From assembly GCA_028285245.1 (NCBI GenBank), contig JANQPY010000027.1, forward strand, positions 1 through 51,932: DNA of 51,932 bases. Reading direction: 5' to 3'. A program made the position numbers and the translations under genes. The notes under the pieces are model-generated. The model was not told the DNA's origin. It was given only the letters and a program-made list of their open reading frames with translations, and searched no databases. This stretch comes from Gammaproteobacteria bacterium (GTDB lineage Bacteria > Pseudomonadota > Gammaproteobacteria > Steroidobacterales > GCA-2729495). This document shows positions 2 through 21,008 of this stretch, piece after piece. Position 1 is the first letter of the stretch. Every line of letters begins with the position of its first letter.

Positions 2-2314
2 GATGCGTGGCGGCCCCGTCAACCGGCACCGCCCGTCACGTTCGTTACCAACCAGGATGATGGCCACGGTAACCGGCTCAACGAGATTAAGCGCGCGGCG
101 GTAGAGGAACTGATTCGCGTATGGCGTTATGAGGAACGCCACGAAGTTGAGAAAGGTGAGTGGGGCTGGGTAAATGTGCCCAACCAGCTCGTTCGCTACG
201 ACAACAATGAGCCGGACAACCTCCCTTTCGCTGCCGATTGGACCGCCACGCTGAACAATGGCGTGCGAAAAATGGATTCGATCAACCTGTGGGTGCCGAA
301 GAGTATTCACCGCGCCACAGGCAAGTCTTCTATGCCCATGTCGATCCAGCGGGTCTTGCCTGGATTGCACCGGGGCAAGACAGCGGTTATCACGGGCGGC
401 AGCTTAGGTATTGGCATGCAGCTCGGCCGCTATCTGGCGATGGCGGGTGCCCGCGTGCTGCTCACTGCCCGCAGTCCCGGCAAGCTCGAGGCGGCGAGGG
501 ACTCGATAGTCGGCGAACTGCGCCGCATCGGCTACGCGAATCCGGACGATCGCATTCAGATCATGGCTGGAGTCGATGTAGGCGATGAGGATGCGTTGCA
601 GCGGCTGCACGACAAGACCATCGAGCTGTTCGGTGATCTGGATTTCCTCATTAACAACGCTGGTATTGCCGGCGCCGAGGAAATGGTTGTCGATATGAGC
701 CTCGATGCATGGAACACGACCATGCAGGCGAATCTCATTTCCAACTACTCGCTTATCCGCAAGTTTGCTCCGCGCATGAAGGAAAGAGGATCCGGGTCGA
801 TTTTGAATATTTCCAGCTACTTCGGGGGTGAGAAGTATGTGTCTGTCGCCTACCCGAATCGAGCCGACTATTCGGTGTCGAAAGCCGGCCAGCGAGCGCT
901 GGCCGAGATCCTTTCCCGTCATCTCGGGCCGGAGATTCAGATCAACGCGAGCGCACCGGGGCCCGTCGATGGCGCTCGTTTGCGTGGACTGGGCGGCGCG
1001 CCCGGACTGTTTGAACGACGCGGCAAGCTAATTCTTGAGAACGTGCGCCTCAATCGGGTGCACGCTGCAATACTCGAAGCGTTGGACGACGGCGCCTCTG
1101 CGGACGATGTGATCCGGCTCGCTGCCAATCGAATCCCGGAACTCAACGAATGGCATGAAGCGCCCGAGGCGTTCCAGAAACTCTTTGCCCGGGTCGCCGA
1201 GGGGAGTCCGGCGGCGACGGCCAGCCATGCGTTGCTCAGTGAGCTGATGGCGCCGAAACTAATGAATCGCCTGGTGGCGGGCGGGCAAATCGATCAGTCG
1301 CATGCCGACAAGTTCTTAGGCAGCTTTCAGCGACCACCTCAGCCCTTCTTTCTCGAGCAAGACATCCGGCGGCAGGCGGAAAAGATCGAGGCCGGCATCC
1401 TCAATCGCCTGCACCTGCACAAGATGCCAACGGACGAGGAGATCGGCCTGTCGACGACCTTTAGTCTGGCCGATGAGAGCGTTAGCGGGGAAACTTTTCA
1501 CCCGTCCGGAGGACTTAAGTTTGACCGGTCGGTGACCGAGGGTGAACTGATCTTGCGGCCTGGTGCTGAAGACCTCAGCTCGCTCCAGGGTAAGCACGTC
1601 GTGTTGCTGGGCGATGCAATGCGCGACGAGCTGACTGAGGTTGCCCAAGGATTTATTCGCTACGGTGTTGCCCGGCTGACGCTGTTGACTCGCAGTGAAG
1701 AGGCGGGTGAGGCGATACGTAATCGTGTCGATCTTCCGGAGGGCGTGGCGCTCGATGTGCGTCCCGTTGGGGACGATATTGAGGCCGGGCTGTCGGGAGC
1801 CTTGCGCGACCACGGTGGCATCGACGTGGTGGTCAGTACGCCGTTCGCGCGCCTGCCGCTCAATGCGTTGGCGGAGGATGCCAGCGGTAGCTGGGATCGT
1901 GTGCTCACGACCGAACAATTCGAGAAAGTGGTGGACGATCATCTAACGCATCACTTCAGGGTCGCGCGTATTGCAGCGCTGATTCCCCGCTGTCAGATCG
2001 TGCTGGTGACGCCTGAAACTTCGCGTGCCTCCACTCGGGAGGAATTCGCGTTAGCCATGTTCATCAAGACAACCATGCATGCGTTCACCGTGACGCTCGG
2101 CGTCGAGACCGAGCGGCTGCCGAGTGTGCCGGCAGTGAACCAGGTCCAGTTAACCCGCCGCGCGCGCGGTGAAGAGCCGGGCAATGAGAAGGAGCTGGCG
2201 GAAGAAATGGAGCGGCTGGTTTACGCCGTCCTGCAATGTGCTGTACCCGCACCCAGTCCTGCCGAGAGCCGCTACCTGTCAAGAATCTACCGTGGCAACG
2301 CGGTCACGGTCTGA
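2..2314 (+). CDS. mcr: malonyl-CoA reductase, C-terminal part (5' end outside window)
   Basis: The reading frame is open from base 2, so the gene starts outside the window; about 770 residues are present. The protein matches my recollection of Chloroflexus malonyl-CoA reductase along its length, a bifunctional NADPH enzyme that reduces malonyl-CoA through malonate semialdehyde to 3-hydroxypropionate. Visible landmarks are a Rossmann motif GGSLGIG, NNAGIAG, the short-chain-dehydrogenase catalytic segment around PNRADYSVSKAGQ, ETFHPSGGL, LTHHFRVARIAAL, and the C-terminal end RIYRGNAVTV. The first ~60 residues match the linker between the two halves, so what is here is essentially the half that makes malonate semialdehyde from malonyl-CoA. 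Homologues were reported in Erythrobacter NAP1 and gammaproteobacterium HTCC2080. It converges with the deformylase-like gene. Whether the first half is intact cannot be seen. Confidence 0.92.
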   Translation, partial: DAWRPRQPAPPVTFVTNQDDGHGNRLNEIKRAAVEELIRVWRYEERHEVEKGEWGWVNVPNQLVRYDNNEPDNLPFAADWTATLNNGVRKMDSINLWVPKSIHRATGKSSMPMSIQRVLPGLHRGKTAVITGGSLGIGMQLGRYLAMAGARVLLTARSPGKLEAARDSIVGELRRIGYANPDDRIQIMAGVDVGDEDALQRLHDKTIELFGDLDFLINNAGIAGAEEMVVDMSLDAWNTTMQANLISNYSLIRKFAPRMKERGSGSILNISSYFGGEKYVSVAYPNRADYSVSKAGQRALAEILSRHLGPEIQINASAPGPVDGARLRGLGGAPGLFERRGKLILENVRLNRVHAAILEALDDGASADDVIRLAANRIPELNEWHEAPEAFQKLFARVAEGSPAATASHALLSELMAPKLMNRLVAGGQIDQSHADKFLGSFQRPPQPFFLEQDIRRQAEKIEAGILNRLHLHKMPTDEEIGLSTTFSLADESVSGETFHPSGGLKFDRSVTEGELILRPGAEDLSSLQGKHVVLLGDAMRDELTEVAQGFIRYGVARLTLLTRSEEAGEAIRNRVDLPEGVALDVRPVGDDIEAGLSGALRDHGGIDVVVSTPFARLPLNALAEDASGSWDRVLTTEQFEKVVDDHLTHHFRVARIAALIPRCQIVLVTPETSRASTREEFALAMFIKTTMHAFTVTLGVETERLPSVPAVNQVQLTRRARGEEPGNEKELAEEMERLVYAVLQCAVPAPSPAESRYLSRIYRGNAVTV

Positions 2315-2909: not shown

Positions 2910-4373
2910 TTACGGTGCGCTGCTGTTCGTCTGGCTGACGGTAGCCGCGTCTTGATCTGACGCTGATACTCGCGTCTCGGTTCGCCGACGCAGCAGGGGT
3001 GCGATGGCAATTAACGTCGCGACCAGGAGGGCAATCTCCAGTGTGTAAACGGTGACGTAGCCTTTCGCCGCGCCGGTGAACCCCCACACCGTTTCCGACG
3101 GTGCCAGGACCAGATTCGCGCCATCGCGAAGTACGCCACTCAATGCCATAGCGATGCCGGCAGCCGTTGCCTGAACGGAGCCCCAGGCACCTAGCGCGAG
3201 TCCGGCCTGCTTCTTCGGCGCCCGTTTCATGGTCGCGGTCAGGGTGCCGTGGGCAAACATGGCGCCGCCGACGCCGATCAGGAAGTTGCCGACAAGAAAC
3301 AGGCCAGTGGCACCAGTGGGTGCGGCGATAACCACGAGCACGAAGGCCGGGATGCCGATCAAGGTGCCACTCTGTGCCATTCGGTGTGGGTTCTCTTCAC
3401 TGGTCGGTGAGTTGGACGCGAGTGCAAACCCGAGCAATCCGCCAAGTGCCAGCAGCGCCGTAAGTTGGGTGGTGGCCGCAACTGACATGTTGAGAACCTG
3501 GCCGCCGAATGGCTCAAGCAGTATGTCGGCCATCGTAAAGCCAACAGTACCGAGGCCGACGATCACCAGGCAGCGAATCGCATGCTCCCCGGTACAGAAT
3601 GCAGCCCAGGATTCTCTGAACGTGGGATCCGGAGCGGGGGCCGGTCGGCCCCGCGGCGGATTGCGGGTTTCCTGTTTCCACATGGCCGTGACGTTGAGAA
3701 TCATCGTCGTGAGTGCGGCACCCTGAATCACCTGCACCAGCCGCCCTGGGGAAAAGTTCGTGAGTGCTGCGCCGAACAACAGTGCGCTGACAATCATGCC
3801 TACCAGCAGCATCACGTACATTAAGCCGACAACGCGTGGGTGGGACTCCGGCGCTGTTAAGTCTGTGGCTAAAGCAAGACCGGCGGTCTGCACAGTGTGC
3901 AGCCCTGCGCCAACGGCCAGAAACGCGAGCGCCGTGGCGCCGTGTCCAATCCAAAGTGGCGCGTTACCCGCCTGGCCCTCGCCAGCCAGTACCAACAGCG
4001 CAAAGGGCATGATGGCGAAGCCGCCAAACTGCATCATGGTGCCTTTCCAGATAAACGGCACACGCCGCCAACCCAATTCGCAGCGATGCGTGTCTGAGCT
4101 ATAGCCAATCAAGGCTCTGAACGGAGCGAACACCAGTGGCAGGGCCAGCATGATGCCAACCAGGGAGGCCGGCACATTGAGTTCCACGATCATGACGCGA
4201 TTGAGCGTTCCGACCAGCAGTACCAGCGCCATGCCCACAGAAATCTGGAACAACGACAGCCGCAATAGTCGGCCGAGTGGCAGATCGGGCGTCGCCACGT
4301 CGGTAAACGGCATGAACCGCGGCCCGTAAGATATCCAGGCCTCGGTTACGCGCTGGCTAAGACGATTGAGCAT
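2910..4373 (-). CDS. pucC: PucC-type LH2 assembly transporter-fold protein
   Basis: 487 residues with about 12 hydrophobic segments, a member of the PucC/LhaA branch of the major facilitator superfamily. These inner-membrane proteins are needed for accumulation of light-harvesting complexes and probably shepherd bacteriochlorophyll or antenna polypeptides. Landmarks shared with the second copy at 10.3 kb are LPLGRLLRLSLFQISVGMAL, GTLNRVMIVEL, the loop FAPFRALIGYSSD, LGWRRVPFIWKGT and QFGGFAIMPFALLVL. It lies downstream of pucB, pucA and the repeat protein on the same strand, so I assign it as pucC and the other copy as lhaA. ATG start at 4373; the stop is 9 nt from the deformylase-like start. 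Confidence 0.9.
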   Translation of the reverse strand: MLNRLSQRVTEAWISYGPRFMPFTDVATPDLPLGRLLRLSLFQISVGMALVLLVGTLNRVMIVELNVPASLVGIMLALPLVFAPFRALIGYSSDTHRCELGWRRVPFIWKGTMMQFGGFAIMPFALLVLAGEGQAGNAPLWIGHGATALAFLAVGAGLHTVQTAGLALATDLTAPESHPRVVGLMYVMLLVGMIVSALLFGAALTNFSPGRLVQVIQGAALTTMILNVTAMWKQETRNPPRGRPAPAPDPTFRESWAAFCTGEHAIRCLVIVGLGTVGFTMADILLEPFGGQVLNMSVAATTQLTALLALGGLLGFALASNSPTSEENPHRMAQSGTLIGIPAFVLVVIAAPTGATGLFLVGNFLIGVGGAMFAHGTLTATMKRAPKKQAGLALGAWGSVQATAAGIAMALSGVLRDGANLVLAPSETVWGFTGAAKGYVTVYTLEIALLVATLIAIAPLLRRRTETRVSASDQDAATVSQTNSSAP

Positions 4374-4420: not shown

Positions 4421-5002
4421 TCAGGCGCTCCGGCGCTTGGTGAGCAGCGGGAAACCGAAGCTCGTATTGCCGGGGCCTTTCTTCAACAGTGGGAAACCGA
4501 AGCTCGTATTGCCCGGTCCACCCTTCAGCAACGGCATCCGGAACAATGCAGACAGCGGTGCCGGGTTACTGCTCAACAGCCTGTAACCGAATGAACGCTG
4601 GTTGTCGAAGCTGATCATTCGGGTTGTTGGTGCTTTGCCTGACAGGAGCGGCAAACCAAGAAAGTCGGAAAGCGGCGCCGGACTCTGGCGGCGGATCTCC
4701 GGCATCTCAATATCCAGCGGGTCCCCGCTGTTGAGCACGTTAACGATCGCCTGCCCTCGACCGAAAGGCTCTTCCACGCCGACGATTGACTTGCCCTGTT
4801 GCAGCTGATCGCGGCAGACCTGCCCATAATCAAATGGCAGGCGCTCATCATCGATAGCAGCTTTAACAGCAGTATCCGCATCGAATCCGGGTGTCAGAAC
4901 AACCAGATCGGATTCCGCAAAACCACGCTCGACCAGTTTGGCGACGACGCCGCGCGCCTGTTGCTCGGTGGAATAAACCTTAACGGTAGGTAGCATGGTC
5001 AT
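4421..5002 (-). CDS. uncharacterised LH2-operon protein with C-terminal tandem repeats
   Basis: 193 residues in two parts. Residues 1 to ~100 look like a small alpha/beta fold resembling general-stress-protein 17M/YflT-type domains: VKVYSTEQQARGVVAKLVER, then VVLTP, then QLQQGKSIVGVEEP. Residues ~105-193 are repetitive and rich in Pro, Leu, Gly and Phe. The sequence GPGNTSFGFPLL occurs twice with a 14-residue period, preceded by degenerate copies such as SALFRMPLL and DFLGLPLL. There is no signal peptide or clear membrane helix. It sits between pucA and pucC on the same strand, which points to a role in LH2 expression or assembly. I do not recognise a named family for the whole protein. A second in-frame ATG at 4996 is also possible. 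Confidence 0.8.
   Translation of the reverse strand: MTMLPTVKVYSTEQQARGVVAKLVERGFAESDLVVLTPGFDADTAVKAAIDDERLPFDYGQVCRDQLQQGKSIVGVEEPFGRGQAIVNVLNSGDPLDIEMPEIRRQSPAPLSDFLGLPLLSGKAPTTRMISFDNQRSFGYRLLSSNPAPLSALFRMPLLKGGPGNTSFGFPLLKKGPGNTSFGFPLLTKRRSA
4449..4532 (-). repeat. 42-bp in-frame direct repeat, two copies
   Basis: Two copies start at 4449 and 4491 and share the 20-base core gggaaaccgaagctcgtatt. They encode the GPGNTSFGFPLL units of the puc-operon repeat protein. The near identity of the DNA suggests recent duplication or slippage. It is coding and not a CRISPR. Confidence 0.85.
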
Positions 5003-5154: not shown

Positions 5155-5298
5155 TTACCCGCCGAAGAAAGCCGGTAACCAGGAAGTGTTGGATAGCACG
5201 GAGTAGTGAATGATCAACGAGATCAGCGCTACAGCGCCCAGGAATAGCGGTAAGCCAACCGTCGGGTTGACCACACACCAGATTCTGCCTTGATTCAT
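5155..5298 (-). CDS. pucA: light-harvesting complex 2 alpha subunit
   Basis: 47-residue one-helix membrane polypeptide that begins MNQGRIWCVVNPTVGLP. The start ATG at 5298 has AAGGGG a few bases upstream and lies 11 nt after the pucB stop. His31 is the expected ligand of the B850-type bacteriochlorophyll, and the N-terminal MNQG segment that ligates B800 in LH2 is kept. The C-terminal segment reads WLPAFFGG, so positions 44 and 45 are Phe-Phe rather than the Tyr-Trp or Tyr-Tyr of B800-850 complexes. In characterised LH3 and mutants, loss of these hydrogen-bond donors shifts the 850-nm band toward 820 nm. The gene is too short for most automatic ORF cut-offs. Confidence 0.95.
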   Translation of the reverse strand: MNQGRIWCVVNPTVGLPLFLGAVALISLIIHYSVLSNTSWLPAFFGG

Positions 5299-5309: not shown

Positions 5310-5471
5310 TTAGCCGAGCCACGGCGTAAAGAGATACGCCAGAACGTGAGCGAACAAAGCAATCACGAAGAACACCCGCGCGCCGTCAATAACGTGCTTG
5401 TGCAGTTCCTCGGACTCCTTGATGGTCAGGCCCGTCGGCCAGACGCGGTCAGGATCATCAATATTGGCCAT
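5310..5471 (-). CDS. pucB: light-harvesting complex 2 beta subunit
   Basis: 53 residues beginning [20 protein letters not shown], with the beta-type motif [19 protein letters not shown] and a single membrane helix ending [14 protein letters not shown]. The His in FAHVLAY is the B850-type ligand. I chose the ATG at 5471 because GAGGAAAC precedes it directly and it gives the normal beta length; a longer in-frame start at 5513 would fall within the promoter region. First gene of the LH2 operon. Confidence 0.95.
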
Positions 5472-5513
5472 TGTTTCCTCCCATGGAATCGGGATGCCTT
5501 TTCCCGTTTCCAC

Positions 5514-5668: not shown

Positions 5669-6481
5669 CTAGCCGCGCCGAAATGCCGCGAGCAGAAAAC
5701 GCCGCCGGACGGGATGCGGCGCAGACCGGTCGGGCCAATGCTCGGCAATCGCCGCCTCCAGCTTCTCGATAACCGGCTCCATGAGTTCGTCCGTCAGAAT
5801 CCAGCTCTCCGGGTTCGCTTTGCCTCGCACACCGGCAACGAAATCCGCGGGGCTCATATCGACCTGCCATTCGCTGGCAACGATTTCTTCACCGTTCTCA
5901 GGTTCTGGCGCGAAGCCAAGGCTGGCCAGTTTGGCGGCGAATTCCCGCTGGCCGGTGGGCGCCTTCAACTGCGGGCCAGCCAACTCGACGACGGCCCGCC
6001 GATAAACGTTCTGCAGGGCACCGGTCACAGACTCCGGGTCAATCCAATCCCGGCCCATCACGAAATGCGCCTCGTGATGCATACAATCCGCTGCCTGTTC
6101 CAGCACGCTTTCCCAGCCTGGGAGCAGGTGCAATACGTGCACCGCCGTAACAGCGTCGAACTGCTGTTCTTGCATCGGCAGGCGATGCAGATCACCACGC
6201 ACCAGCATCACATCGCCACGCTGAACGGCTGCATGCTGGTAGACCTGCGCCAGCATGTCGCCGGAAAGATCGATACCCGCAACGCTGCAGCCGGCCTCTG
6301 CCACCGGCAGCGCAATGCGGCCGGTGCCGATGCCGAGTTCCAGAATTTTCTTGCCCGGACCGATCAGCCTGACAATAGCCGCGCCGACTTCACGGGAAAC
6401 TTCCGGAGGGTGCGCGCGTTGGCTGTCGTACTGGTCAGCAACGCGCTGGTCGAAAGCAAAATCGAGCGCGCGCGAGGTCAT
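5669..6481 (-). CDS. class I SAM-dependent methyltransferase in the bch operon
   Basis: 270 residues with SAM-binding motif I ELGIGTGRIALPVAEAG near residue 50, the acidic ribose-binding strand end VAGIDLS, and DAVTAVHVLHLLPGW as motif III/IV. It resembles ubiquinone/menaquinone or type-11 methyltransferases with a ~110-residue C-terminal addition. It follows the bch2-like transporter by 27 nt on the same strand (bchG-bchP-bch2-this gene), so a role in bacteriochlorophyll, carotenoid or quinone chemistry is plausible. It is not a recognisable BchM, BchU or CrtF, and the substrate is unknown. Confidence 0.75.
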   Translation of the reverse strand: MTSRALDFAFDQRVADQYDSQRAHPPEVSREVGAAIVRLIGPGKKILELGIGTGRIALPVAEAGCSVAGIDLSGDMLAQVYQHAAVQRGDVMLVRGDLHRLPMQEQQFDAVTAVHVLHLLPGWESVLEQAADCMHHEAHFVMGRDWIDPESVTGALQNVYRRAVVELAGPQLKAPTGQREFAAKLASLGFAPEPENGEEIVASEWQVDMSPADFVAGVRGKANPESWILTDELMEPVIEKLEAAIAEHWPDRSAPHPVRRRFLLAAFRRG

Positions 6482-6508
6482 TCGATCGGATGAGGTCAGG
6501 CGGAGAAA

Positions 6509-7879
6509 TCAGGCAATCGAACCAGCTTCCATCGCCCTTTCGAGATCACGCTGCGTCAGATCGGCCGCGTGCTGCTGCTTAAACTGCTGCACGCTGATGC
6601 GCATCAATACCGCCGCGGCGATGAGCATGGCGACCGCTTCGAAAAAGAAGATGCCACCGTAAGCGGCCTGCGGCGTAACGGCGCCGCTCTCGATCAGGCT
6701 TGAGTGCAATATGCCGCTGCTGATCGACGAGAAGCCGGTGCCGAAGGCCTGGGCGACACCCCACAGGCCCATGTACATGCCGGTGGCGCCCTCGATGGTC
6801 ATGTCCATCATCATGGCCAGCCCACCGACGTTAAAGAAGCCGGTGAAGATGCCCATGCCAAACAGGATCGGCCGCACCCACTGACTCTGTTCCATGGTGG
6901 CTGCGCCCGCCAACGCGAACATTCCAATGGCTATTCCGAAGCAGCCCAGCAGCGCGATGGTCTTTTTGCTCAGGCTTGTCGTGACGCTGATGATGCCCAT
7001 CACAATCATGCCGAGCAGTACGCCGCCGCCCCATGTGGGCTGAAACTTGGTGGTCTCCGCCACGCTCATGCCAAAGACTTCCGCGCCGAAGACCTCAAGA
7101 ATATTGTCCTGGAGGAAAATCGCGAAAATCGCCAGGAAGATAAATGCGAAGAACCCGCGGGTTTGCGGATTCTCCTGCAGCAGGCGCAGTGCAGCAGTCA
7201 GTGGGTTCTGATCGCTGGCAATTGCGCGCGCCCGGGCCCGTGATTCAACCACCTCTTCGGGCGACAGGCGCTTTTCGACGCCAAGAATTCCGAACAGCGC
7301 CGAGCCGATCACGATGAACGGCGTCAGGTTGTACAGCGTTTGCATCGCCTCGGGCGTGTACTCGGGGCGGACGATGTTCATGACGACCGAGGCGAGGATC
7401 GTGCTCATGATCGTGACGATCCACACCACCGAGATCACGCCACCGCGGGTCTTCTCGCTGGTGACTTCCGCGATTAACGAGTGGTAGCAGTCACCCAAAA
7501 ACGCCATGGCGACGCCAAATACTGCGAACAACAAAAAGCCGAGCAGAGTCCAGGCCATGGAGCCCGCACCCATGCCCTCTGCAACCGTGGGTAGCGCGAC
7601 AAACACAGCGCTGGCGGCAACCGCGCCCATGAGCATGTAGGGCGTGCGGCGATAGCCAAGAATGGGATGTGTGTCGGCGAGCCGGCCAACAATCACCTGA
7701 AATGGCGACAGGAAGTAGTGCATCGCCAGCATCGAGGTAACCAGTACTGCAGCGACGCCCAACTCGACGATTGAGATGCGGTTGAAGTCGATAGTGAGCA
7801 GCGCAAACATCCAGCCGACCCCGATTTTCGGGGCAGCCAGTCGCAGAGTGCGGAGCAGGGCTGCGATGACGCCGAGCAT
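6509..7879 (-). CDS. bch2: PucC-family transporter-like protein of the bchP/bchG operon (bch2 type)
   Basis: About 456 residues, twelve hydrophobic segments. It belongs to the PucC superfamily but to a different branch from pucC and lhaA. Landmarks are GWMFALLTIDFNRISIVELG, HYFLSPFQVIVGRLADTHP and LGYRRTPYMLMG. In Rhodobacter the corresponding gene lies between bchG and bchP; here it follows bchP. Its role is unproven, possibly pigment handling in the inner membrane. I place the start at the ATG at 7879 because GGGGGG lies about 9-10 nt upstream. The longer frame back to 7945 would need a TTG codon without a ribosome site. Confidence 0.85.
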   Translation of the reverse strand: MLGVIAALLRTLRLAAPKIGVGWMFALLTIDFNRISIVELGVAAVLVTSMLAMHYFLSPFQVIVGRLADTHPILGYRRTPYMLMGAVAASAVFVALPTVAEGMGAGSMAWTLLGFLLFAVFGVAMAFLGDCYHSLIAEVTSEKTRGGVISVVWIVTIMSTILASVVMNIVRPEYTPEAMQTLYNLTPFIVIGSALFGILGVEKRLSPEEVVESRARARAIASDQNPLTAALRLLQENPQTRGFFAFIFLAIFAIFLQDNILEVFGAEVFGMSVAETTKFQPTWGGGVLLGMIVMGIISVTTSLSKKTIALLGCFGIAIGMFALAGAATMEQSQWVRPILFGMGIFTGFFNVGGLAMMMDMTIEGATGMYMGLWGVAQAFGTGFSSISSGILHSSLIESGAVTPQAAYGGIFFFEAVAMLIAAAVLMRISVQQFKQQHAADLTQRDLERAMEAGSIA

Positions 7880-7987
7880 TATTGTTATCCCCCCCAGGAT
7901 CGACGGCCGCCGCTCAATATTGGCGCACGGCCTGCTGCGCTGCAAGTCGGAGGCCGTGAGGCACCCCGTTGGTATGCAGCCGCAGCG

Positions 7988-9211
7988 CTAATTCGTTGGC
8001 GCGACACCGAGCAAGTGGGCCATGTCCTTGCAGAAAATCCGCACGTGCGCCAGCGGGCGTGCCCGCACCAGGCGCTTATGCATGTAGGCCTGCCAGGTCA
8101 GGTATTGCACGTCGGGATCGCGGCAAATATTGACGAATCTCTCCCGTCGCTTGTCGGACGAGTACCAGAATTTCTGCATGATGCCGAGCACCCAGAAAAC
8201 CTTGCCGTGGCTGCGCATAAAGCGCTTGCGCGCCTGCTTTAGGGCGCGCGGATTGCCGGTGCGAAGCAGTTCGCCTACCGCTTCGGCGGCAAGCTTGCCG
8301 CTGGTCATGGCGTAGTAGATTCCCTCACCGGAAGCTGGGGCCACCGCACCAGCCGCATCGCCGGCGACAATCACATCACGGCCATTGTCCCATCGCGGCA
8401 GAGGGCTCATGGGAATCGGTGCGCCCTCGCGTCTGATCAGCGCCGACTGTTCCATGCCGGCAGTGCGTCGGATGGCGCTGACGGCACCGCGCAGCGAAAA
8501 GCCCTTTTTCGCGGAGCCCACGCCGACGCTGGTTGCGGCGCCGTGCGGAAAAACCCAGCCATAGAAATCCGGAGACAGGCGGCCCTGGTAGTAAATTTCG
8601 CAGCGCTCGCCATCGAACTCGGGCGTTATTTCCTGCGGCGACTCCACGATTTCGTGATATGCCAGCACGTGCCGGGCGCGGTCGGCGCCCTTGATCTCCT
8701 GGCGGGCCACCTTTGAGCGGGCGCCGTCGGCACCAATGATTGTTTTGGCGCCGACCTGCTCTGTGTGTTTAGTGCCATCCGGTCCCTGGGTTTCGAACTC
8801 GACGATGGGGGCGCCGGAAGCGGTGCGATCAATACTGACAAACTTACCGCGGCGCCAGTCGGCTCCCAAAGACGCCGCTCGCTCGCGCAGCCATTCATCG
8901 AAATGCTCGCGATCGACCATGCCGACGAAGCCACCTTCAATCGGCATATCCACTTTGCGGCTGGCCGGTGAAATCATCCGCGCATTGCGGGTGCGCGCAA
9001 CGATTAATTCATCGGGGATGGCAAATTCTTCGATGAGTTTTGGCGGTATCGCGCCGCCACAGGGCTTGATGCGGCCCGCTCGGTCGAGCAGCAACACTTT
9101 GTGTCCCGCTTGCGCGAGTTCAGCGGCGGCGGTAGATCCGGATGGCCCGCCGCCAATAACGACTACGTCGAAGGATTCGATGTCTACGGCCCGAAATTCT
9201 TTTCCGGGCAC
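7988..9211 (-). CDS. bchP: geranylgeranyl reductase (bacteriochlorophyll)
   Basis: 407 residues. It uses NADPH to reduce the geranylgeranyl tail of bacteriochlorophyll (or its diphosphate) to phytyl in three steps. An FAD-binding dinucleotide fold opens the protein (DVVVIGGGPSGSTAAAEL), followed by LLLDRAGRIKPCGGAIPP, typical of BchP/ChlP. The second FAD motif IVAGDAAGAVAPASGEGIYY lies near residue 280. GTG start at 9211 without a strong ribosome site. It lies 48 nt after bchG and 108 nt before the chosen bch2 start on the same strand. Confidence 0.95.
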   Translation of the reverse strand: MPGKEFRAVDIESFDVVVIGGGPSGSTAAAELAQAGHKVLLLDRAGRIKPCGGAIPPKLIEEFAIPDELIVARTRNARMISPASRKVDMPIEGGFVGMVDREHFDEWLRERAASLGADWRRGKFVSIDRTASGAPIVEFETQGPDGTKHTEQVGAKTIIGADGARSKVARQEIKGADRARHVLAYHEIVESPQEITPEFDGERCEIYYQGRLSPDFYGWVFPHGAATSVGVGSAKKGFSLRGAVSAIRRTAGMEQSALIRREGAPIPMSPLPRWDNGRDVIVAGDAAGAVAPASGEGIYYAMTSGKLAAEAVGELLRTGNPRALKQARKRFMRSHGKVFWVLGIMQKFWYSSDKRRERFVNICRDPDVQYLTWQAYMHKRLVRARPLAHVRIFCKDMAHLLGVAPTN

Positions 9212-9259
9212 GATACCACAGGCGTCTGAATCCTGGTGTAAGCGTTGGGTTGCCGCGTG

Positions 9260-10129
9260 CTACGACGGTCGCACAGCAAACGCGCACACCAGCATGCCGG
9301 ATACAAACATCAGCGTCGCCGTGCCGTTGAACCAGGGCGCGCGCTCCTCCGGGGCGGCCAGAAGGCGCGGCGCCAGTGCCGCCTGGCCTGCCGAGAGACC
9401 GGCGATAGCGAGTGCATGCCACGGCAGCTGCCACCAGACCAATGCCACCACAACGGCGGCCTGAGCTGCCAGCATGATGCCGCAGGACAGGCGGGCGGCG
9501 GCAGGGATGCCGAGCTGCACGGGCAGTGAGCGAATGCCCATTTGCCGATCGCCCTCGGCCGACTTGAAATCGTTGAACGTCATGATGCCGAGCGTGCCGA
9601 CGCTGTAGAAGGCAGCGAGCCAGAGGATGCGCGGGTCGGGTAATGCAGCGGTGAGCATCGTCACGCCCGTGAACCACGGGATTCCCTCATAGGAAATGGC
9701 GCAGGCAAAGTTGCCAAGCCAGCCGTTATTTTTTAGTCGTAACGGTGGAGCGCTATAGGCCCAGGCCAGCGCCAGACCGATAACGGCTGCCACCAGTACC
9801 CAGGATCCAAGCGACCACGCGACAAGGAGAGACAGGCCGGTCCAGCCCAGGGCCAGGTACAGCGCTGAGCTTCCGGGCATCCGGCCGGATGGGACTGGCC
9901 GGTTCGGTTCGTTGATTTTGTCGACGTGGCGATCGAACCAGTCGTTGGCAGCCTGGCTGGTTCCGCACACCAGCGGACCGGCAAGTGCCACGCCGGCCAG
10001 GATAATCGGCCAATTTGCCAGGATGGATTCGCCGGAAGAAACCACTCCGCACATGAGTGCCCAGACTGGGGCAAACCACGTGACCGGCTTCAACAGTTCG
10101 ATCGCCGTGGCGACTGAGATATGCGGCAT
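9260..10129 (-). CDS. bchG: bacteriochlorophyll synthase
   Basis: 289 residues, a UbiA-family membrane prenyltransferase that esterifies bacteriochlorophyllide a with geranylgeranyl diphosphate. The Mg-diphosphate motif NDWFDRHVDKINEPNRPVPS is at about residues 62-81. The second Asp-rich region is TFNDFKSAEGDRQMGIRSLP. Eight or so hydrophobic segments are visible. First gene of the minus-strand operon bchG-bchP-bch2-methyltransferase, divergent from lhaA across 146 nt that must hold both promoters. Confidence 0.96.
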   Translation of the reverse strand: MPHISVATAIELLKPVTWFAPVWALMCGVVSSGESILANWPIILAGVALAGPLVCGTSQAANDWFDRHVDKINEPNRPVPSGRMPGSSALYLALGWTGLSLLVAWSLGSWVLVAAVIGLALAWAYSAPPLRLKNNGWLGNFACAISYEGIPWFTGVTMLTAALPDPRILWLAAFYSVGTLGIMTFNDFKSAEGDRQMGIRSLPVQLGIPAAARLSCGIMLAAQAAVVVALVWWQLPWHALAIAGLSAGQAALAPRLLAAPEERAPWFNGTATLMFVSGMLVCAFAVRPS

Positions 10130-10275
10130 CGGCGCAACATAGTGAGCCGCCCGAAGGCTGTCAACGGCGCGACGTTTGCATAGTCCTCAGTCTGGCCATG
10201 ATTCATCGCCAAGTGTCTGGTCTTCCTCCGGAGTGCTACTGTTGCTCCCGCCTATGCGCTGTCAGCGCTCCATAA

Positions 10276-11709
10276 ATGCAGAACAAACGCTTAAAGACAT
10301 TCGCTGGCTTCTGGACAGAGCTGAGTCCTACCTGGCTACCGTTCGCTGATGCCGCTTCGGCGGAATTGCCTTTGGGGCGGTTGCTCCGTCTGGCGCTGTT
10401 TCAGGTCTCGGTTGGCATGGCCATCGTGATGCTGAACGGCACGCTGAACCGCGTCATGATCGTTGAGCTTCAGGTGCCGGCGACTTTGGTCGGCGTCATG
10501 ATTTCGCTACCGCTGTTGTTCGCGCCGTTTCGTGCGTACATCGGCCATCGTTCTGATAACTACCGCTCGCTGCTCGGCTGGCGGCGCGTGCCGTTCATCT
10601 GGATGGGTACGCTCTTGCAGTTCGGTGGGTTTGCCATCATGCCCTTTGCTCTCATTGTGCTGTCCGGAGATACGAACGGCCCGCTGTGGTACGGCCACGT
10701 CGGTGCTGCGCTGGCGTTCCTGCTGGTCGGCGCCGGTCTGCACACGACGCAAACGTCCGGTCTGGCGCTGGCGATGGACCTGGCACCGCCCAAGACCCGG
10801 CCGAGGGTCGTGGCACTGCTGTACGTCATGTTACTCGCCGGAATGCTCGTGAGCGCGTTGGGGTTTGGTTTTGCGCTTCAGGATTTCAGTCAGATCGGCT
10901 TGATTGGCGTCGTCCAGGGGGCTGCCCTGATTACCGTTGCACTCAATCTGGTTGCCCTTTGGAAGCAGGAGCCGCAGGACTTTGCGCTGACGTCGCCTGA
11001 GCGCAAGCGACAGAGTTTTCGCGCATCCTGGCAGGCCTATAAAGCGAGCGGGCAGACGCTTCGTCTGCTTACCGCCGTGGGTTTCGGCACCGCAGCTTTC
11101 AGCATGCAGGATGTGCTGCTGGAACCCTATGGGGGTGAAGTACTCGGGCTTTCTGTCGCATCGACAACGACGCTGACAGCCCTGTGGGCCGCCGGCACGA
11201 TAGCGGCCTTGATTGTTGCCTCGCGTCGACTGATGGCGGGTGCAGATCCGGGGCGTTTGGCGGCCAGCGGCTGTTTGGTTGGGGTCCTGGCGTTTGCCCT
11301 CGTGGGGTTCGCCGCGCTACTGGATTCCGCGTTTGTCTTTCGGATCGGTACGGTGCTGATTGGCTTCGGCGCCGGCCTGTTCGCAGTTGGTACGCTAACT
11401 GCCTGCATGGACCTGGCCCGCAGGGAGTCTTCCGGTTTGGCCCTGGGCGCTTGGGGTGCCGTGCAGGCGACATCGGCCGGGCTGGCCATCGCCGCAGGCG
11501 CGCTACTGCGCGATCTGGTCACTCGATGGGCAGATGCGGGTATTTTGGGTCCCGCGCTACATGGCCCGTTGCCGGGTTATATTAGCGTTTATCAGATCGA
11601 GATATTCCTGCTATTCGTAACGCTCGCGCTGTTCGGGCCCCTCGTTCGCGCCGAGCGTGCACAGCAGGATAGCCGGGCAAAGTTTGGTCTGAGCGAGTTT
11701 CCCGGCTAA
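10276..11709 (+). CDS. lhaA: LhaA-type LH1 assembly protein (PucC family)
   Basis: 477 residues with twelve membrane segments. Strongly similar to the pucC product in this window: LPLGRLLRLALFQVSVGMAI, GTLNRVMIVELQVPATLVG, LGWRRVPFIWMGT. LhaA is needed for LH1 assembly and normally sits directly upstream of puhA, as here (17 nt gap). In Rhodobacter lhaA follows bchFNBHLM; here it is the first gene after a divergent promoter with bchG, so the cluster has been rearranged. No good ribosome site is seen before the ATG at 10276. Confidence 0.9.
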   Translation: MQNKRLKTFAGFWTELSPTWLPFADAASAELPLGRLLRLALFQVSVGMAIVMLNGTLNRVMIVELQVPATLVGVMISLPLLFAPFRAYIGHRSDNYRSLLGWRRVPFIWMGTLLQFGGFAIMPFALIVLSGDTNGPLWYGHVGAALAFLLVGAGLHTTQTSGLALAMDLAPPKTRPRVVALLYVMLLAGMLVSALGFGFALQDFSQIGLIGVVQGAALITVALNLVALWKQEPQDFALTSPERKRQSFRASWQAYKASGQTLRLLTAVGFGTAAFSMQDVLLEPYGGEVLGLSVASTTTLTALWAAGTIAALIVASRRLMAGADPGRLAASGCLVGVLAFALVGFAALLDSAFVFRIGTVLIGFGAGLFAVGTLTACMDLARRESSGLALGAWGAVQATSAGLAIAAGALLRDLVTRWADAGILGPALHGPLPGYISVYQIEIFLLFVTLALFGPLVRAERAQQDSRAKFGLSEFPG

Positions 11710-11726
11710 ACCTGGCAGCGGAGGCG

Positions 11727-12518
11727 ATGGATATGGATACAGGCGCGATCACTGGCTACGTAGACGTTGCACAGATTGTGCTCTACGGGTTCTGGATCTT
11801 TTTTGCCGCATTGATCATTTATCTGCGGCGGGAAGACAAGCGCGAGGGTTATCCGCTCGAGTCGGATCGCTCCGATAGCATAAAGGTGCAGGGCTTTCCG
11901 GCCGTGCCCGAGCCGAAGAAGTTTGAGCTACCCGATGGAAGGGTGGTCTACGCGCCGCGGCAAGAAGAGCCCGAAACCGTTGCCAATGCACAGCCCAGTG
12001 AGCCATGGCCAGGTGCACCGCTGGAGCCAGTCGGTGACCCGATGCTCGCCGGTGTAGGACCAGGATCGGCCGCCAGGCGACCCGATCACCCCGAGGAGGG
12101 TCCGGACGGTCTGCCCAAGATCCGGCCATTGCGCGCGTGCCCGGAGTTTTCCGTTGCCAATGGGCAGCCTGATCCGCGGCGGATGACTGTAGTCGGCGCG
12201 GATGGTGAACCCGCTGGTGCGATCAGTGATGCCTGGATCGATCTGGAAGAGCCGCAGATCCGCTATCTGGAAGCGCAGCTCAACGCGTCGATTGCCGGCG
12301 GTGACAACAGGCCGGTGCTGATTCCGATGCCGCTCGCCAAGATCAATGCCCGCCGCGAAACCGTAACGGTAAACTCACTCACCGCCAGTCAGTTCGCCCA
12401 TATCCCGCGGATATCATCCGGCGATTCCATCACGCTGCAGGAAGAAGAAAACGTCGTCGCGTACTTCGGTGCCGGACAGCTTTACGCGATGCAGTCGCGC
12501 AAGGGGCCGCTCGTTTAG
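11727..12518 (+). CDS. puhA: photosynthetic reaction centre H subunit
   Basis: 263 residues. One N-terminal membrane helix (VDVAQIVLYGFWIFFAALII) is followed by the YLRREDKREGYPLE segment typical of H subunits, then a cytoplasmic beta-rich domain. That domain caps L and M and channels protons to QB. KIRPLRACPEFSVANGQPDP, DLEEPQIRYLEAQL and VLIPMPLAKINARR are recognisable PRC-barrel segments. Length is normal. It starts 17 nt after lhaA and leads puhB-puhC-puhE. Confidence 0.97.
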   Translation: MDMDTGAITGYVDVAQIVLYGFWIFFAALIIYLRREDKREGYPLESDRSDSIKVQGFPAVPEPKKFELPDGRVVYAPRQEEPETVANAQPSEPWPGAPLEPVGDPMLAGVGPGSAARRPDHPEEGPDGLPKIRPLRACPEFSVANGQPDPRRMTVVGADGEPAGAISDAWIDLEEPQIRYLEAQLNASIAGGDNRPVLIPMPLAKINARRETVTVNSLTASQFAHIPRISSGDSITLQEEENVVAYFGAGQLYAMQSRKGPLV

Positions 12519-12521
12519 GCA

Positions 12522-13175
12522 ATGTCAGGCGCCGGAGAACTGCACGAAGTTGATCCAATACGCGGCCTGCCCGAGCTTCTGCCTGAAGGCGAGCGGATCT
12601 TGTGGCAGGGCCAGCCGCAGTGGTGGTCTTTAGGTCAGCGCGTTTTTCACATTCGACTTGTGATCGTTTACTTCGTCGCGCTGATTCTTTGGCGCGTGGT
12701 CTCACCTGGCGAAGCAGACCCATCGACAATGTTGGCCGGCCTGGCGGTCACCGCCGCACTGGGCGTAGCTGCGGTCGGCCTGCTCATGCTGCTGGCTGCC
12801 CTGATTTGCCGCACGACCATTTACACGGTGACCAACCGGCGAGTCGCGATGCAGCTGGGCGTGGCGCTGCCCATCAACCTGAATCTGCCCTTCAAGCACA
12901 TTGAGTCGGCCGGTCACGGAGCCTTCCGGGACGGCACGGGCGATATTCCATTGCGCCTGTCCATGGACAACCACGTTGCCTACCTGCTGCTGTGGCCGCA
13001 TGCGCGACCTTGGCGGGTCCGGCGGCCCGAGCCGATGCTTCGCTGTGTTGCAGATTCGGCTGCGGTTGCGGCCACGCTGGCAACAGCGTTGGCGCAATAC
13101 CACGGCGGCGGGGCTGAAGCGACGGCGGAGCCGGATGCTTCCGCCACCTGCGAACGGGCGGTCGCGCAGAGCTAA
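12522..13175 (+). CDS. puhB: photosynthetic complex assembly protein PuhB
   Basis: 217 residues. The start EVDPIRGLPELLPEGERILW is typical of PuhB. Two membrane helices around residues 40-100 precede a PH-like (bPH2) region beginning TIYTVTNRRVAMQLGVALP. PuhB is an inner-membrane factor that helps reaction-centre assembly and interacts with PuhA. ATG lies three bases after the puhA stop, so translation is probably coupled. Confidence 0.93.
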   Translation: MSGAGELHEVDPIRGLPELLPEGERILWQGQPQWWSLGQRVFHIRLVIVYFVALILWRVVSPGEADPSTMLAGLAVTAALGVAAVGLLMLLAALICRTTIYTVTNRRVAMQLGVALPINLNLPFKHIESAGHGAFRDGTGDIPLRLSMDNHVAYLLLWPHARPWRVRRPEPMLRCVADSAAVAATLATALAQYHGGGAEATAEPDASATCERAVAQS

Positions 13176-13186
13176 AGAAACCCATC

Positions 13187-13657
13187 GTGGCGTCTCACTC
13201 CCATGCGCAGCAGTTCCCGCGGGCAATTCTGGTTGCGGCGGCGGCATTGATCGGCTTGACGATCGCCCTGGCTGCCCTCGGGCGTTTATCCGGTCTGGGC
13301 GTCACGGCCCCCGACGATGCGGACATCGTTGCGAGTATTGAGCTGTACTTTCAGGATCGCGAAGACGGGTCGGTCTGGATATATCGTGACGTTGCTGAAG
13401 AGCCAGTCACGGTCTTGCCTCCTGGTACCAACGGTTTTGTCCGTGGCGTAATGCGCGGCCTGGCACGGGAGCGCCGCATGCACGACGTTGGCGCAGGCGA
13501 GCCGTTCGAGCTGCGCAGCAATGCCGCCGGGGGCTTAAGGCTGCACGACCCCTCTACACGTCGCACGATTGATTTGCAGGCGTTTGGGCCCGACAACTAT
13601 GGCGCCTTCGCGGCAATCTACAGCGACGCGACGGCGGCTAGCGATCTGTTGAGATAG
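13187..13657 (+). CDS. puhC: photosynthetic complex assembly protein PuhC
   Basis: 156 residues: one N-terminal membrane anchor (residues ~12-35), then a periplasmic domain with SIELYFQDREDGSVWIYRD, GFVRGVMRGLARERR and PFELRSNAAGGLRLHDP, a pattern characteristic of PuhC. It supports assembly or organisation of the RC-LH1 core. GTG start at 13187, 11 nt after puhB. Confidence 0.92.
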   Translation: MASHSHAQQFPRAILVAAAALIGLTIALAALGRLSGLGVTAPDDADIVASIELYFQDREDGSVWIYRDVAEEPVTVLPPGTNGFVRGVMRGLARERRMHDVGAGEPFELRSNAAGGLRLHDPSTRRTIDLQAFGPDNYGAFAAIYSDATAASDLLR

Positions 13658-13668
13658 AGTTCGGCAGC

Positions 13669-14457
13669 ATGTGGTCGCTCCTGCTGCCGGTAACCTACAT
13701 TCTGTTGCTCTGGTGGCTGCTGACTGGTGTCGTGTTGTATCTCGACGGCCTCCCGCGCCGGAGCTTCCGATGGACGCTGCTTGGCGCAACCGTCGTCCTG
13801 TTGCTTGCCGTGCTGGGCGTTGTCGGCACGCGATCTTCAACCAGCCTGCCTGATGTCTACTGCGCGGCAACCTGCGGGCTACTGATCTGGGGCTATCTGG
13901 AGCTGACGTATCTCACCGGTTTTTTTACCGGCCCGGTCAAGCATGCCTGTCCACCCCGCGCCACAGGGCCGCGGCGTTTCTGGCTCGCGTTGCAAACCAG
14001 CCTGTATCACGAGCTCGCAGTCGTATTTGCCGGGCTTATGCTTTACGTCATTACCGCGGGCCACGAAAACCACTTCGCGTTCGGTTGCTTTGTGGTGCTG
14101 TGGATCATGCGCTGGAGCGCAAAACTGAACCTGTACTTCGGCGTGCGGAACCTCAACGAGGACTGGCTGCCTGAGCACCTGCGCTACCTGGCTAGCTATA
14201 TGCGTCGGCGTCCGATAGGCCCGTTTTTCTTGTCGTCGGTTGGTGCGGCAATGGCGATGGCGATCTACCTCACGAGTCAGTTTTCCGCCGAGCCGCTCAA
14301 CGGTCAGGCGGCTGGCCAGCTGTTGGTGCTGACCTTGCTGTGGCTCGCGATTCTTGAGCATTGGATGCTCGTGCTGCCGGTTGATGCGTCGGCCGTGTGG
14401 CGCTGGGGTCTGCGATCGCATGACCGTGCTCAGACCGGGCAAGAAACGCACGATTAG
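13669..14457 (+). CDS. puhE: PuhE-type membrane protein (DUF3623)
   Basis: 262 residues with about seven hydrophobic segments. The region around WIMRWSAKLNLYFGVRNLNE and the segment LPEHLRYLASYMRRR are the conserved PuhE signature. PuhE is restricted to photosynthesis gene clusters and affects bacteriochlorophyll levels or photosynthetic-unit development; its activity is unknown. It starts 11 nt after puhC and is followed 8 nt later by bchO. Confidence 0.9.
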   Translation: MWSLLLPVTYILLLWWLLTGVVLYLDGLPRRSFRWTLLGATVVLLLAVLGVVGTRSSTSLPDVYCAATCGLLIWGYLELTYLTGFFTGPVKHACPPRATGPRRFWLALQTSLYHELAVVFAGLMLYVITAGHENHFAFGCFVVLWIMRWSAKLNLYFGVRNLNEDWLPEHLRYLASYMRRRPIGPFFLSSVGAAMAMAIYLTSQFSAEPLNGQAAGQLLVLTLLWLAILEHWMLVLPVDASAVWRWGLRSHDRAQTGQETHD

Positions 14458-14465
14458 CGCCGGCT

Positions 14466-15347
14466 ATGCAAGCGAATATCGTCGAGGACCTTGCTTGGGA
14501 GCGGGAAGGCAGCGATTGGCCAAATCGTGAGCACAGCCAGTTTGTGCGCGCCGATGGTATCCGCTGGCATTGCCAGCTCTACGGTGACGGTCCGCGGGTG
14601 TTGCTGCTGCACGGGGCCGGCGCAGCCACACATTCCTGGCGCGATTTCGGCCCTGAACTGGCCAGCCACTTCCGCGTGCTGGCCGTTGATCTGCCGGGGC
14701 ATGGGTTCAGCGAGACGTTGCCGGGGTCGCGGTTGTCGCTGGACGGCGTATCTACAGCGTTACTCGCTCTGCTGGAGACGCTCAACTTCGATCCAGAGCT
14801 GACCGTAGGCCACTCAGCCGGGGCCGCTTTAGCCTGTCATCTCGCCCTGTTTCGTGGCCTCTCCCCCCGGAAGCTGGCGAGCCTCAACGGCGCCCATCTG
14901 CCTTTGCGCGGTTATCCGAGCTGGCTCTACGGCCCGATCGCCGGGTTCATTGCCAACAGCCGGCGCTTACCCCGCTGGTTTGCGCGGCGCGCCTGTGATC
15001 GAAAGGTGGTTGACCGGCTGATGCGGAACACGGGTTCGAACATTGACCCGGAAGGCTTCGAGTTCTACTGGCGTCTGGCCCGCTCTCCGGCCCACGTCTC
15101 TGCGGCGTTGGGGCTGATGGCGCATTGGGACGTGCGCCCAATCGAGCAAAGTCTGAATAAGCTAAAGCAGCCGTTACTCCTGATCACTGGCAGCAATGAC
15201 AGCACCGTGCCGCCGGCCGATTCGCTGCGCGTACATGATCGTGTCGCTGGATCTACCCACGTCTCTCAGGATTCGCTCGGGCATCTCGCGCACGAGGAAG
15301 ACTCCGCCGGCACGGCGGCAGTGGTCCGCGACTTTTGGTTCAGCTGA
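14466..15347 (+). CDS. bchO: BchO, alpha/beta hydrolase of bacteriochlorophyll synthesis
   Basis: 293 residues. BchO is often annotated as a magnesium-chelatase accessory protein, but no reaction is proven. Alpha/beta-hydrolase features: oxyanion segment VLLLHGAGAATHSWRDF, nucleophile elbow GHSAG, acid region LLITGSNDSTVPP and a His in DSLGHLAHEE. The N-terminus DLAWEREGSDWPNREHSQFV is typical of BchO. Last gene of the lhaA-puhABCE-bchO run, converging with the DUF3422 gene (6 nt between stops). Confidence 0.92.
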   Translation: MQANIVEDLAWEREGSDWPNREHSQFVRADGIRWHCQLYGDGPRVLLLHGAGAATHSWRDFGPELASHFRVLAVDLPGHGFSETLPGSRLSLDGVSTALLALLETLNFDPELTVGHSAGAALACHLALFRGLSPRKLASLNGAHLPLRGYPSWLYGPIAGFIANSRRLPRWFARRACDRKVVDRLMRNTGSNIDPEGFEFYWRLARSPAHVSAALGLMAHWDVRPIEQSLNKLKQPLLLITGSNDSTVPPADSLRVHDRVAGSTHVSQDSLGHLAHEEDSAGTAAVVRDFWFS

Positions 15348-15353
15348 CGGCCG

Positions 15354-16649
15354 CTAACCGTCGGTGGTCCTGGTTAGCTGCTTTCTCACGGTGCGCACGC
15401 CCAGGGCAACGATGAGGGCAACCACCGGGATACTCAGCGCGGTAATTATCCGCGGCTCGAGTGAATCATCTATCAGCGCCAGGCTCTCGGCGAGGTAATC
15501 AATCAGGCTGACGACGTAGTAAGTAATTGCCGCGACGGACAGCCCTTCGACGGTTTGCTGGAGCCGAAGCTGAAAAGCTGCTCGCCTGTTCATTGAGGAA
15601 AGCAATTCCTGATTTTGTTTCGCACGGCCAACACCAACGCGGGTAGATAGCAGTTGCGTGGCGCGCGCGGCTCTCCTGGAAACCGATTCCTGACGTTTGG
15701 CGACAACCTCGCAGGTATTCATGGCCGGCGCGAGGCGGCGCTCGGTAAATTCCTGGAAGGTTTGCAGCCCCTCGAGTCGTTCCTCGCGCAATTCTGCAAT
15801 TCGCCGATCGATGATGTCGCTGTATGCAGCCGACGCGCCGAAGCGAAAGTTGTTCACTGACTGGCGGTTTTCCAACGACGCCTGCAGCCGTGTGAGCTGA
15901 TTCAGGAGCTGGGCTTCGTCGGTTTCACCTTCCTGTAGCAGGGTGTTGGTGACGTCGGCGAGTTCGGTCTCCGAGCGCAGCAAGAACGGCGTTAGCTCCC
16001 GCGCGACGGGCAAGGCGAGCAGCGCCATCACCCGGTAGGTATCAATCTCGAGGATTCTCTGGATCATGCGGCCAGCTTGACGAGGCGACATGCTGCCATT
16101 GAAAACGAGCAGGCGGCTGAAGCCATCTTCGCGAATGCGCAGATCCGTGAGAGCGCTTGCCGCTCCGTTTGCCAGCGCACCGCCGATTAGCGGGTGGCCG
16201 CTAAAGTACTGTCGCGAGAGCTCCTCGTACTTGCTGGCGTCGACGTTGCCGGCTACTAGCGCGACGTTCGTTGCGACCATGGCTTCGCCCGGCAGACGGC
16301 TGATCCAATCTGCCGGTAGCGTGCTTATCGCGGACGACTCGAACGGCTCTGTGCCGTCGGCGTCCGCGATAAGCATGTACCGGGAAAACTCGGTATGCCG
16401 TTCCCAGCGTAGCCGCGATTCCGTAAGGGCCAGTTCGTAGTGCGTTGCGCCGGGTTCAGGTGGGGCTGCGCCGTGGTCCCGGGCCAGCTCGCTCAGCAGG
16501 TCCAGCTCGCTCTCAGCCTCTGCAGCGTCGGCGTACGAAGCGACATAGGTGACGCGCGCCGGCCGTCTGACTGCCACCGGCGGCCGCGCATGGACCTCAT
16601 TGTTGAGCTCAATGCGCTGCGGGTGGTCTCGCAGTAGCTTATTCGCCAT
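15354..16649 (-). CDS. DUF3422 family membrane-anchored protein
   Basis: 431 residues. The N-terminus HPQRIELNNEVHARPP is the hallmark of DUF3422. A soluble N-terminal domain (to ~residue 240) is followed by a predicted coiled coil (ELREERLEGLQTFQEFTERR) and two C-terminal membrane helices near residues 365-425. The family is common in proteobacteria and has no established function. It lies between the bchO and crtC arms, 20 nt upstream of crtC's stop, on the same strand as crtD-crtC and downstream of them, so it may be the third gene of that operon. Confidence 0.82.
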   Translation of the reverse strand: MANKLLRDHPQRIELNNEVHARPPVAVRRPARVTYVASYADAAEAESELDLLSELARDHGAAPPEPGATHYELALTESRLRWERHTEFSRYMLIADADGTEPFESSAISTLPADWISRLPGEAMVATNVALVAGNVDASKYEELSRQYFSGHPLIGGALANGAASALTDLRIREDGFSRLLVFNGSMSPRQAGRMIQRILEIDTYRVMALLALPVARELTPFLLRSETELADVTNTLLQEGETDEAQLLNQLTRLQASLENRQSVNNFRFGASAAYSDIIDRRIAELREERLEGLQTFQEFTERRLAPAMNTCEVVAKRQESVSRRAARATQLLSTRVGVGRAKQNQELLSSMNRRAAFQLRLQQTVEGLSVAAITYYVVSLIDYLAESLALIDDSLEPRIITALSIPVVALIVALGVRTVRKQLTRTTDG

Positions 16650-16669
16650 GGCGCTGGAGCGCGGCCGGA

Positions 16670-19107: not shown

Positions 19108-19186
19108 TGACTCGTTTCATGCGCGCTCCTAGATTGCACCAGTCGCGCATAGAGTACGCGCGTTCGTTTGCGCGAGGTCTGAACAG

Positions 19187-20302: not shown

Positions 20303-20453
20303 CTTGCAAAAACCTGCGATGAGCATAAGCTGTGTCGTCAGGGCTAGAAGTAACAGGGATCGGGCCGGTTTGAGAATGCCGCACGACTTGGCCGCGTGCA
20401 GTTAGCTTCTCAAATGCCTGCATCCCGGCGTCCACTAGAAGGGGGTCTCTCTA

Positions 20454-20678: not shown

Positions 20679-20690
20679 GAGCACAAAACC

Positions 20691-20891: not shown

Positions 20892-20909
20892 CGTCGGGGT
20901 TGCCGGCTG

Positions 20910-20942: not shown

Positions 20943-21008
20943 AGTCAGTTGGCGGGTGGCGCTGCAGACTAAAGGCAGGCGTCCACGGCCAGGCACCGGA
21001 AAAACTAG

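Follow-up and report, generated by a model that had tools for sequence, protein, structure and literature searches.

What does a malonyl-CoA reductase (MCR) do at the edge of a gammaproteobacterial photosynthesis gene cluster? The DNA analysed here (the window, 51,932 bases) is the entire contig C24 of its own assembly, G000. Its first open reading frame (positions 2-2314, plus strand) runs in frame from base 2 through a stop codon, with the 5' end cut by the contig edge. A first-pass annotation had described the 770 encoded residues as the C-terminal half of a Chloroflexus-type MCR. Searches of PDB sequences with phmmer bear out the family. The protein matched full-length MCR 8hi4 of Roseiflexus castenholzii with 785 bits (E 9e-235; in the best stretch, residues 12-770 align to chain residues 465-1229) and full-length MCR 8hjw, which we take to be that of Chloroflexus aurantiacus, with 743 bits (aligned from chain residue 448 to the end). 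With MCR chains and fragments excluded, the best remaining match scored 73 bits.

PMC10470521 names Ser731, Tyr743, Arg746, Tyr749, Lys753, Arg785, Leu795, Arg799 and Arg1164 as residues for catalysis or CoA binding in Roseiflexus MCR. The first eight are identical in the window by alignment and position check, and Arg1164, read from the alignment, is also kept. Tyr743, Arg746 and Tyr749 fall within YPNRADY (851-871, plus strand), the YXXRXXY catalytic motif of SDR3. Alignment and conserved residues together identify the C-terminal SDR3-SDR4 part of a Chloroflexus-type MCR, which converts malonyl-CoA to malonate semialdehyde.

As mcr is in frame at the first bases of the contig, its missing N-terminal part lies beyond the assembly edge, and a search of G000 found none elsewhere in the bin. 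It is present in P0001, a 1209-aa protein from another record (a 6,964-base contig) that is 100% identical over all 770 window residues. At the level of sequence, P0001 shows that an intact full-length mcr reading frame exists, without the truncated or frameshifted N-terminal half that would have told against the annotation. With 770 of 1209 residues, the window carries about 64% of the chain, so that "C-terminal" stands but "half" does not. In P0001 the N-terminal SDR1-SDR2 part is fused in the same chain, keeps residues equivalent to the T-Y-K triad Thr165, Tyr178 and Lys182, and contains its own YXXRXXY motif, YYGRIPY. From these conserved catalytic residues, we infer that the enzyme would reduce malonyl-CoA with two NADPH to 3-hydroxypropionate.

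A convergent block begins 100 bp from mcr. It comprises peptide deformylase (2415-2900), a pucC-type PUCC protein (2910-4373), a protein without family match (4421-5002) and two light-harvesting antenna subunits matching PF00556, which we read as alpha type (5155-5298) and beta type (5310-5513), all on the minus strand. The gene had been placed directly beside the puc operon; the proximity is real, but the deformylase gene intervenes before pucC. The remainder of the photosynthesis gene cluster (5669-23859) includes a methyltransferase, further PUCC proteins (one of them lhaA-like), an FAD protein (bchP-like), a UbiA protein (bchG-like), puhA, DUF3623 and an amine-oxidase-type protein (carotenoid desaturase-like), the bracketed names being read from Pfam. 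It ends with the reaction-centre L (21009-21833), M (21855-22823) and cytochrome C (22756-23859) subunits. The contig thus carries photosynthesis genes, as first described, and pufL, pufM, puhA and the antenna genes identify an anoxygenic phototroph with a type II reaction centre. Three PUCC-family proteins (2910-4373, 6509-7945 and 10276-11709) occur within this single cluster. Being convergent, mcr and the deformylase-puc block cannot belong to one operon, and a common transcript is not expected. No stable hairpin was found between mcr and the deformylase gene (z 0.66).

To place this arrangement among others, we collected MCR stretches from GTDB genomes. A total of 102 were confirmed, of which 80 were kept (L011-L090). 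The first-pass statement that proteobacterial MCR is confined to a few phototrophs is not supported, as the confirmed stretches span several phyla; carriers among the 80 include Halieaceae, Woeseiaceae MAGs, Wenzhouxiangella, sphingomonads, Burkholderiales, Gemmatimonadota and Myxococcota, among others. Of the two hosts that the annotation named, HTCC2080 is among them (L019) and Erythrobacter NAP1 is absent from the list of 80. No homologue of puc, puf, puh or bchG was found in the available flanks of mcr at 82 loci (L009-L090). The exceptions among photosynthesis-related genes were one crtD/I-like match (L078) and bchP-like matches at E 1e-3 in four loci. For the 80 kept loci, downstream flanks were at least 5 kb in 49, at least 9 kb in 40 and less than 300 nt in 13; in 38 loci the upstream and the downstream flank each reached 5 kb or more.

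The picture differs at the level of whole genomes. We picked 50 of the 80 loci for taxonomic spread, 49 of which lay in genomes that were searched, and reaction-centre genes (PF00124) were present in 45 of these 49. The four without were Myxococcales, Burkholderiaceae and Novosphingobium MAGs and the gammaproteobacterial MAG of L089. The association of mcr with phototrophy therefore holds at genome level and not between neighbours. Linkage to photosynthesis genes, to which the first-pass annotation had attached meaning, keeps that meaning for the genome and loses it for the neighbourhood. Since the genes converge and the arrangement was unseen in the flanks of the other loci, the position of mcr beside puc is probably incidental, and we set local linkage aside as evidence for function.

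Within the window's own family both traits are rare. PF00124 matched two of 40 genomes, G000 and G027, and at E 1e-80 none of the 36 other family members searched gave an MCR. Elsewhere in the order, two genomes from a different family carry an MCR at 50% identity that belongs to the other main MCR clade. G027, the second phototroph of the family, has a photosynthesis cluster (C24:62245-88143) with a gene order unlike that of the window, and no MCR was found in it.

Such rarity could mean that the contig is misbinned or chimeric, with mcr and the photosynthesis cluster coming from another organism; reaction-centre genes are, after all, absent from 38 of the 39 other family genomes. The composition of the DNA argues otherwise. 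Against its own assembly (63 contigs, 2.79 Mb, 95.4% complete, 2.3% contamination), the first 30 kb of the window gave tetranucleotide correlations of 0.918-0.921, compared with 0.820-0.953 for 25 of the genome's own 10-kb pieces from other contigs and 0.415-0.884 for 34 other mcr loci. The two parts after 30 kb scored 0.891 and 0.867. At the 2.3-kb scale the mcr piece itself scored 0.750, inside the genome's own range (33% of 104 own pieces were lower); as 10 of the 80 pieces taken at other mcr loci also reach this score, the 2.3-kb test is weak alone. Gene order points the same way, as positions 29-39 kb are collinear with contigs of two same-genus genomes at 57-80% protein identity. Together, composition and same-genus collinearity make misbinning very unlikely.

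The collinear region also contains an SbtA-type bicarbonate transporter (30491-31519, plus strand) and a 98-aa PII-like protein (31547-31843, plus strand) with weak matches of 35.7 bits to 5d4n and 26.3 bits to SbtB 6wue. We asked whether this pair points to carbon fixation linked with mcr and rejected it as specific evidence. The order LysR, sbtA, PII-like, LysR, SDR, HapK, methyltransferase is common to the window (from 29 kb) and same-genus G003, and its later part recurs in G002. Neither genome gave an MCR or reaction-centre match; sbtA belongs to the genus backbone and is not specific to mcr.

Conserved gene order around mcr was found on its upstream side. We examined 82 loci (L011-L090, L212 and L213); eight were too short to tell, and the 74 with at least 300 nt of upstream sequence all carried the same partner directly upstream, a homologue of a protein of about 1815 aa ending less than 300 nt from mcr (median gap 30 nt). 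The representative from L035 has ligase, hydratase and zinc-dehydrogenase domains and, over almost its full extent, matches 6eqo with 1979 bits. Depositors named that molecule acetyl-coenzyme A synthetase; we take it to be the propionyl-CoA synthase (PCS) of Erythrobacter NAP1. Relatives of the partner go by the source name acrylyl-CoA reductase/3-hydroxypropionyl-CoA dehydratase/synthetase. With pcs upstream in all 74 loci, mcr usually forms a pcs-mcr pair in which it comes second. An apparent natural PCS-MCR fusion in L067 (ORF of 3041 aa) was rejected, as its two parts lie in different frames. At L089 (4619-13638), from the sediment gammaproteobacterial MAG without a reaction-centre match, both pcs and mcr are broken up among two or three reading frames, by decay after loss of phototrophy or by assembly errors.

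PCS was not found in the bin of the window, where the best matches were ligase-like pieces at contig ends, with 40-43% identity. The contig starts inside mcr, so that pcs would be expected in just the stretch that the assembly lacks. In the same assembly, an acetyl-CoA-synthetase-like gene is seemingly split across the ends of contigs C21 and C25; contigs may break inside genes here. No PCS from the 6,964-base contig of P0001 was seen among the best 120 of 1,215 and the best 120 of 272 matches, protein lists in which clustering at 90% could hide it. By analogy with the 74 other loci, we infer that pcs precedes mcr here as well. Upstream of pcs, the PpsR-type motif TGTN12ACA occurred in one of 60 loci, against 3.1 expected by shuffling.

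Genes for the steps beyond propionyl-CoA are on a separate contig of G000. An operon on C40 (L170) encodes a CitE-like lyase, methylmalonyl-CoA mutase, pccB, pccA, MeaB and an epimerase. The mutase scored 1258 bits against a cut-off of 876, pccB matched 3n6r with 872 bits, its nearest PDB chains being propionyl-CoA carboxylases, and pccA is a biotin carboxylase/carrier protein. Propionyl-CoA carboxylase, which the first-pass annotation had proposed looking for, is thus encoded together with epimerase and mutase. The gene of the CitE-like lyase (L170:9541-10413) overlaps the mutase gene start by four bases. A PF01039 search of G000 returned one match, the propionyl-CoA carboxylase subunit; acetyl-CoA carboxylase is assumed present from its role in lipid synthesis. 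The RuBisCO large chain (PF00016) was found in none of 14 genomes searched, G000 included.

Our preferred reading, to which we assign a probability of roughly 0.68, is that MCR and the predicted PCS work in a half-pathway that carboxylates acetyl-CoA on the way to succinyl-CoA, in a reaction-centre host in which no RuBisCO was found. Acetyl-CoA carboxylase would convert acetyl-CoA to malonyl-CoA, MCR would spend two NADPH in reducing this to 3-hydroxypropionate, and PCS, predicted just upstream of mcr, would yield propionyl-CoA. The carboxylase, epimerase and mutase encoded on C40 would then lead to succinyl-CoA. Such a half-pathway would consume two bicarbonates and three NADPH per acetyl-CoA. 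In the light less respiration may be needed, which would leave reductant and ATP available for it. Set against this reading, PCS and the N-terminal part of MCR were not found in the bin, and isocitrate lyase is present (a 430-aa frame on contig C45 with two adjoining matches), so that growth on acetate would not depend on MCR. The four MCR genomes lacking a reaction-centre match, G027 as a phototroph in which no MCR was found, and a PpsR-type motif no commoner than chance upstream of pcs also count against it. The carboxylase-mutase route also serves propionate and amino-acid catabolism. Methylmalonyl-CoA mutase occurs in four of four same-genus relatives without MCR, which suggests that the lineage had the mutase branch before it acquired MCR.

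MCR, carboxylase, epimerase and mutase would also belong to a complete 3-hydroxypropionate bicycle, supporting autotrophy as in Chloroflexus. The CitE-like lyase that starts the mutase operon fits this alternative, and according to PMC9802188 the bicycle occurs in MAGs of photosynthetic Burkholderiales and of Gemmatimonadota. However, the CitE-like protein scored 178 bits, far under the citE cut-off of 443, and the mesaconyl/beta-methylmalyl-CoA hydratase family PF19315 had no match in the roughly 95% complete assembly at E 1e-5; in a search of 14 genomes it matched eight, in most cases along only some of the profile. With neither RuBisCO nor this hydratase found, we regard the Chloroflexus bicycle as very unlikely in G000.

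A heterotrophic role deserves more weight and is still improbable, at something like one chance in several. Here MCR and PCS would mainly serve uptake or release of 3-hydroxypropionate, propionate or surplus reductant while the cell grows heterotrophically, and light would have no particular part in it. Isocitrate lyase already covers acetate in G000, no shared regulator motif of the PpsR type was found upstream of pcs beyond chance, and four of 49 MCR genomes lack reaction-centre matches. Assimilation of organic substrates has been proposed for Actinobacteriota with partial pathways (PMC9802188). What weighs against a purely heterotrophic role is that 45 of the 49 MCR genomes are phototrophic by gene content, while reaction centres are so rare in the family of the window.

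We then compared the ancestry of MCR with that of the reaction centre. Across 40 genomes, identity to G000 in MCR and in PufLM was uncorrelated (Spearman 0.17, p 0.29). In the MCR tree (41 of 43 rows, after two fragments shorter than 900 aa were dropped), G000 grouped with three Woeseiaceae MAGs at an SH-aLRT of 90, or 100 with L012 added. The PufLM tree contained 40 of the 45 reaction-centre genomes together with G027 and a second pair from G071. In it G000 did not join the Woeseiaceae MAGs; resolution around G000 was poor, and its placement was with a long-branched Myxococcota row (82/68). With identities uncorrelated and nearest relatives differing between the two trees, co-inheritance of MCR and PufLM was rejected, and the difference also counts against our preferred reading. 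G071 (Longimicrobiales, the genome of L049) has two pufLM pairs, on C235 and C38, that lie apart in the tree, either from a bin mixture or from two reaction centres.

These patterns allow a broader and more tentative proposal, which we hold at somewhat below even odds. Anoxygenic phototrophs that lack RuBisCO may share the pcs-mcr pair as a mobile cassette for carboxylation, exchanged among gamma- and alphaproteobacteria, Gemmatimonadota and Myxococcota. The cassette would plug into an ancestral methylmalonyl-CoA operon and turn light energy into bicarbonate-fixing assimilation of acetate without the second half of the bicycle. In the window it would have come to lie beside a photosynthesis cluster whose reaction-centre genes have a separate origin.

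The common view of aerobic anoxygenic phototrophs is that they live photoheterotrophically, with little carbon fixation. A pcs-mcr pair across several such lineages would represent a defined RuBisCO-free route that takes up two bicarbonates per acetyl-CoA, and would bear on the share of their carbon that bicarbonate contributes in the light. The organism studied here would likely use MCR to incorporate acetate and bicarbonate into biomass when light provides energy. The window adds one lineage, from a family with few reaction-centre genes; the later steps reside on a separate operon, which makes the half-pathway prediction testable gene by gene.

The combination of MCR and PCS in proteobacteria, phototrophs included, is already published. 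According to PMC9802188, both enzymes occur in Alpha- and Gammaproteobacteria, and an HP/HB cycle is assigned to Luminiphilus. For phototrophic Myxococcota, PMC10576062 examines the bicycle and reports the Calvin cycle. An mcr adjoining a puc block was not met in a literature search covering open-licence papers. The window is a new lineage and a new neighbourhood for mcr, not a new kind of system.

Among known systems, the MCRs of Roseiflexus castenholzii and Chloroflexus aurantiacus share with ours a length of about 1210-1230 aa, tandem SDR domains and all checked catalytic and CoA-binding residues. They differ in host phylum and in the puc block that lies beside mcr here, and the second cycle of the Chloroflexus bicycle was not found in G000 (searched as PF19315). 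The Woeseiaceae MAGs PL25b_bin.32 (L035), PL23b_bin.52 (L017) and PL25a_bin.57 (L011) hold the closest named MCR relatives (71-76% identity) in the same pcs-mcr order, whereas their PufLM forms a clade separate from G000. In these MAGs (G068, G067 and G063, respectively) the only mutase match, at E 1.5e-88 to 1.1e-87, lies in a reading frame some 1,160 aa long, unlike the full methylmalonyl-CoA mutase of G000. We read this long frame as IcmF-like; propionyl-CoA may leave by another route or through a different mutase in these carriers of pcs-mcr and pufLM. The Halieaceae phototrophs (HTCC2080, Luminiphilus syltensis, Chromatocurvus and Pseudohaliea) differ from the window in having no photosynthesis homologue in the available flanks of mcr, some of them short downstream. 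They resemble it in an MCR that is 65-67% identical, in the pcs-mcr order (predicted for the window), in reaction-centre genes and methylmalonyl-CoA mutase, and in the RuBisCO search, which found none in either.
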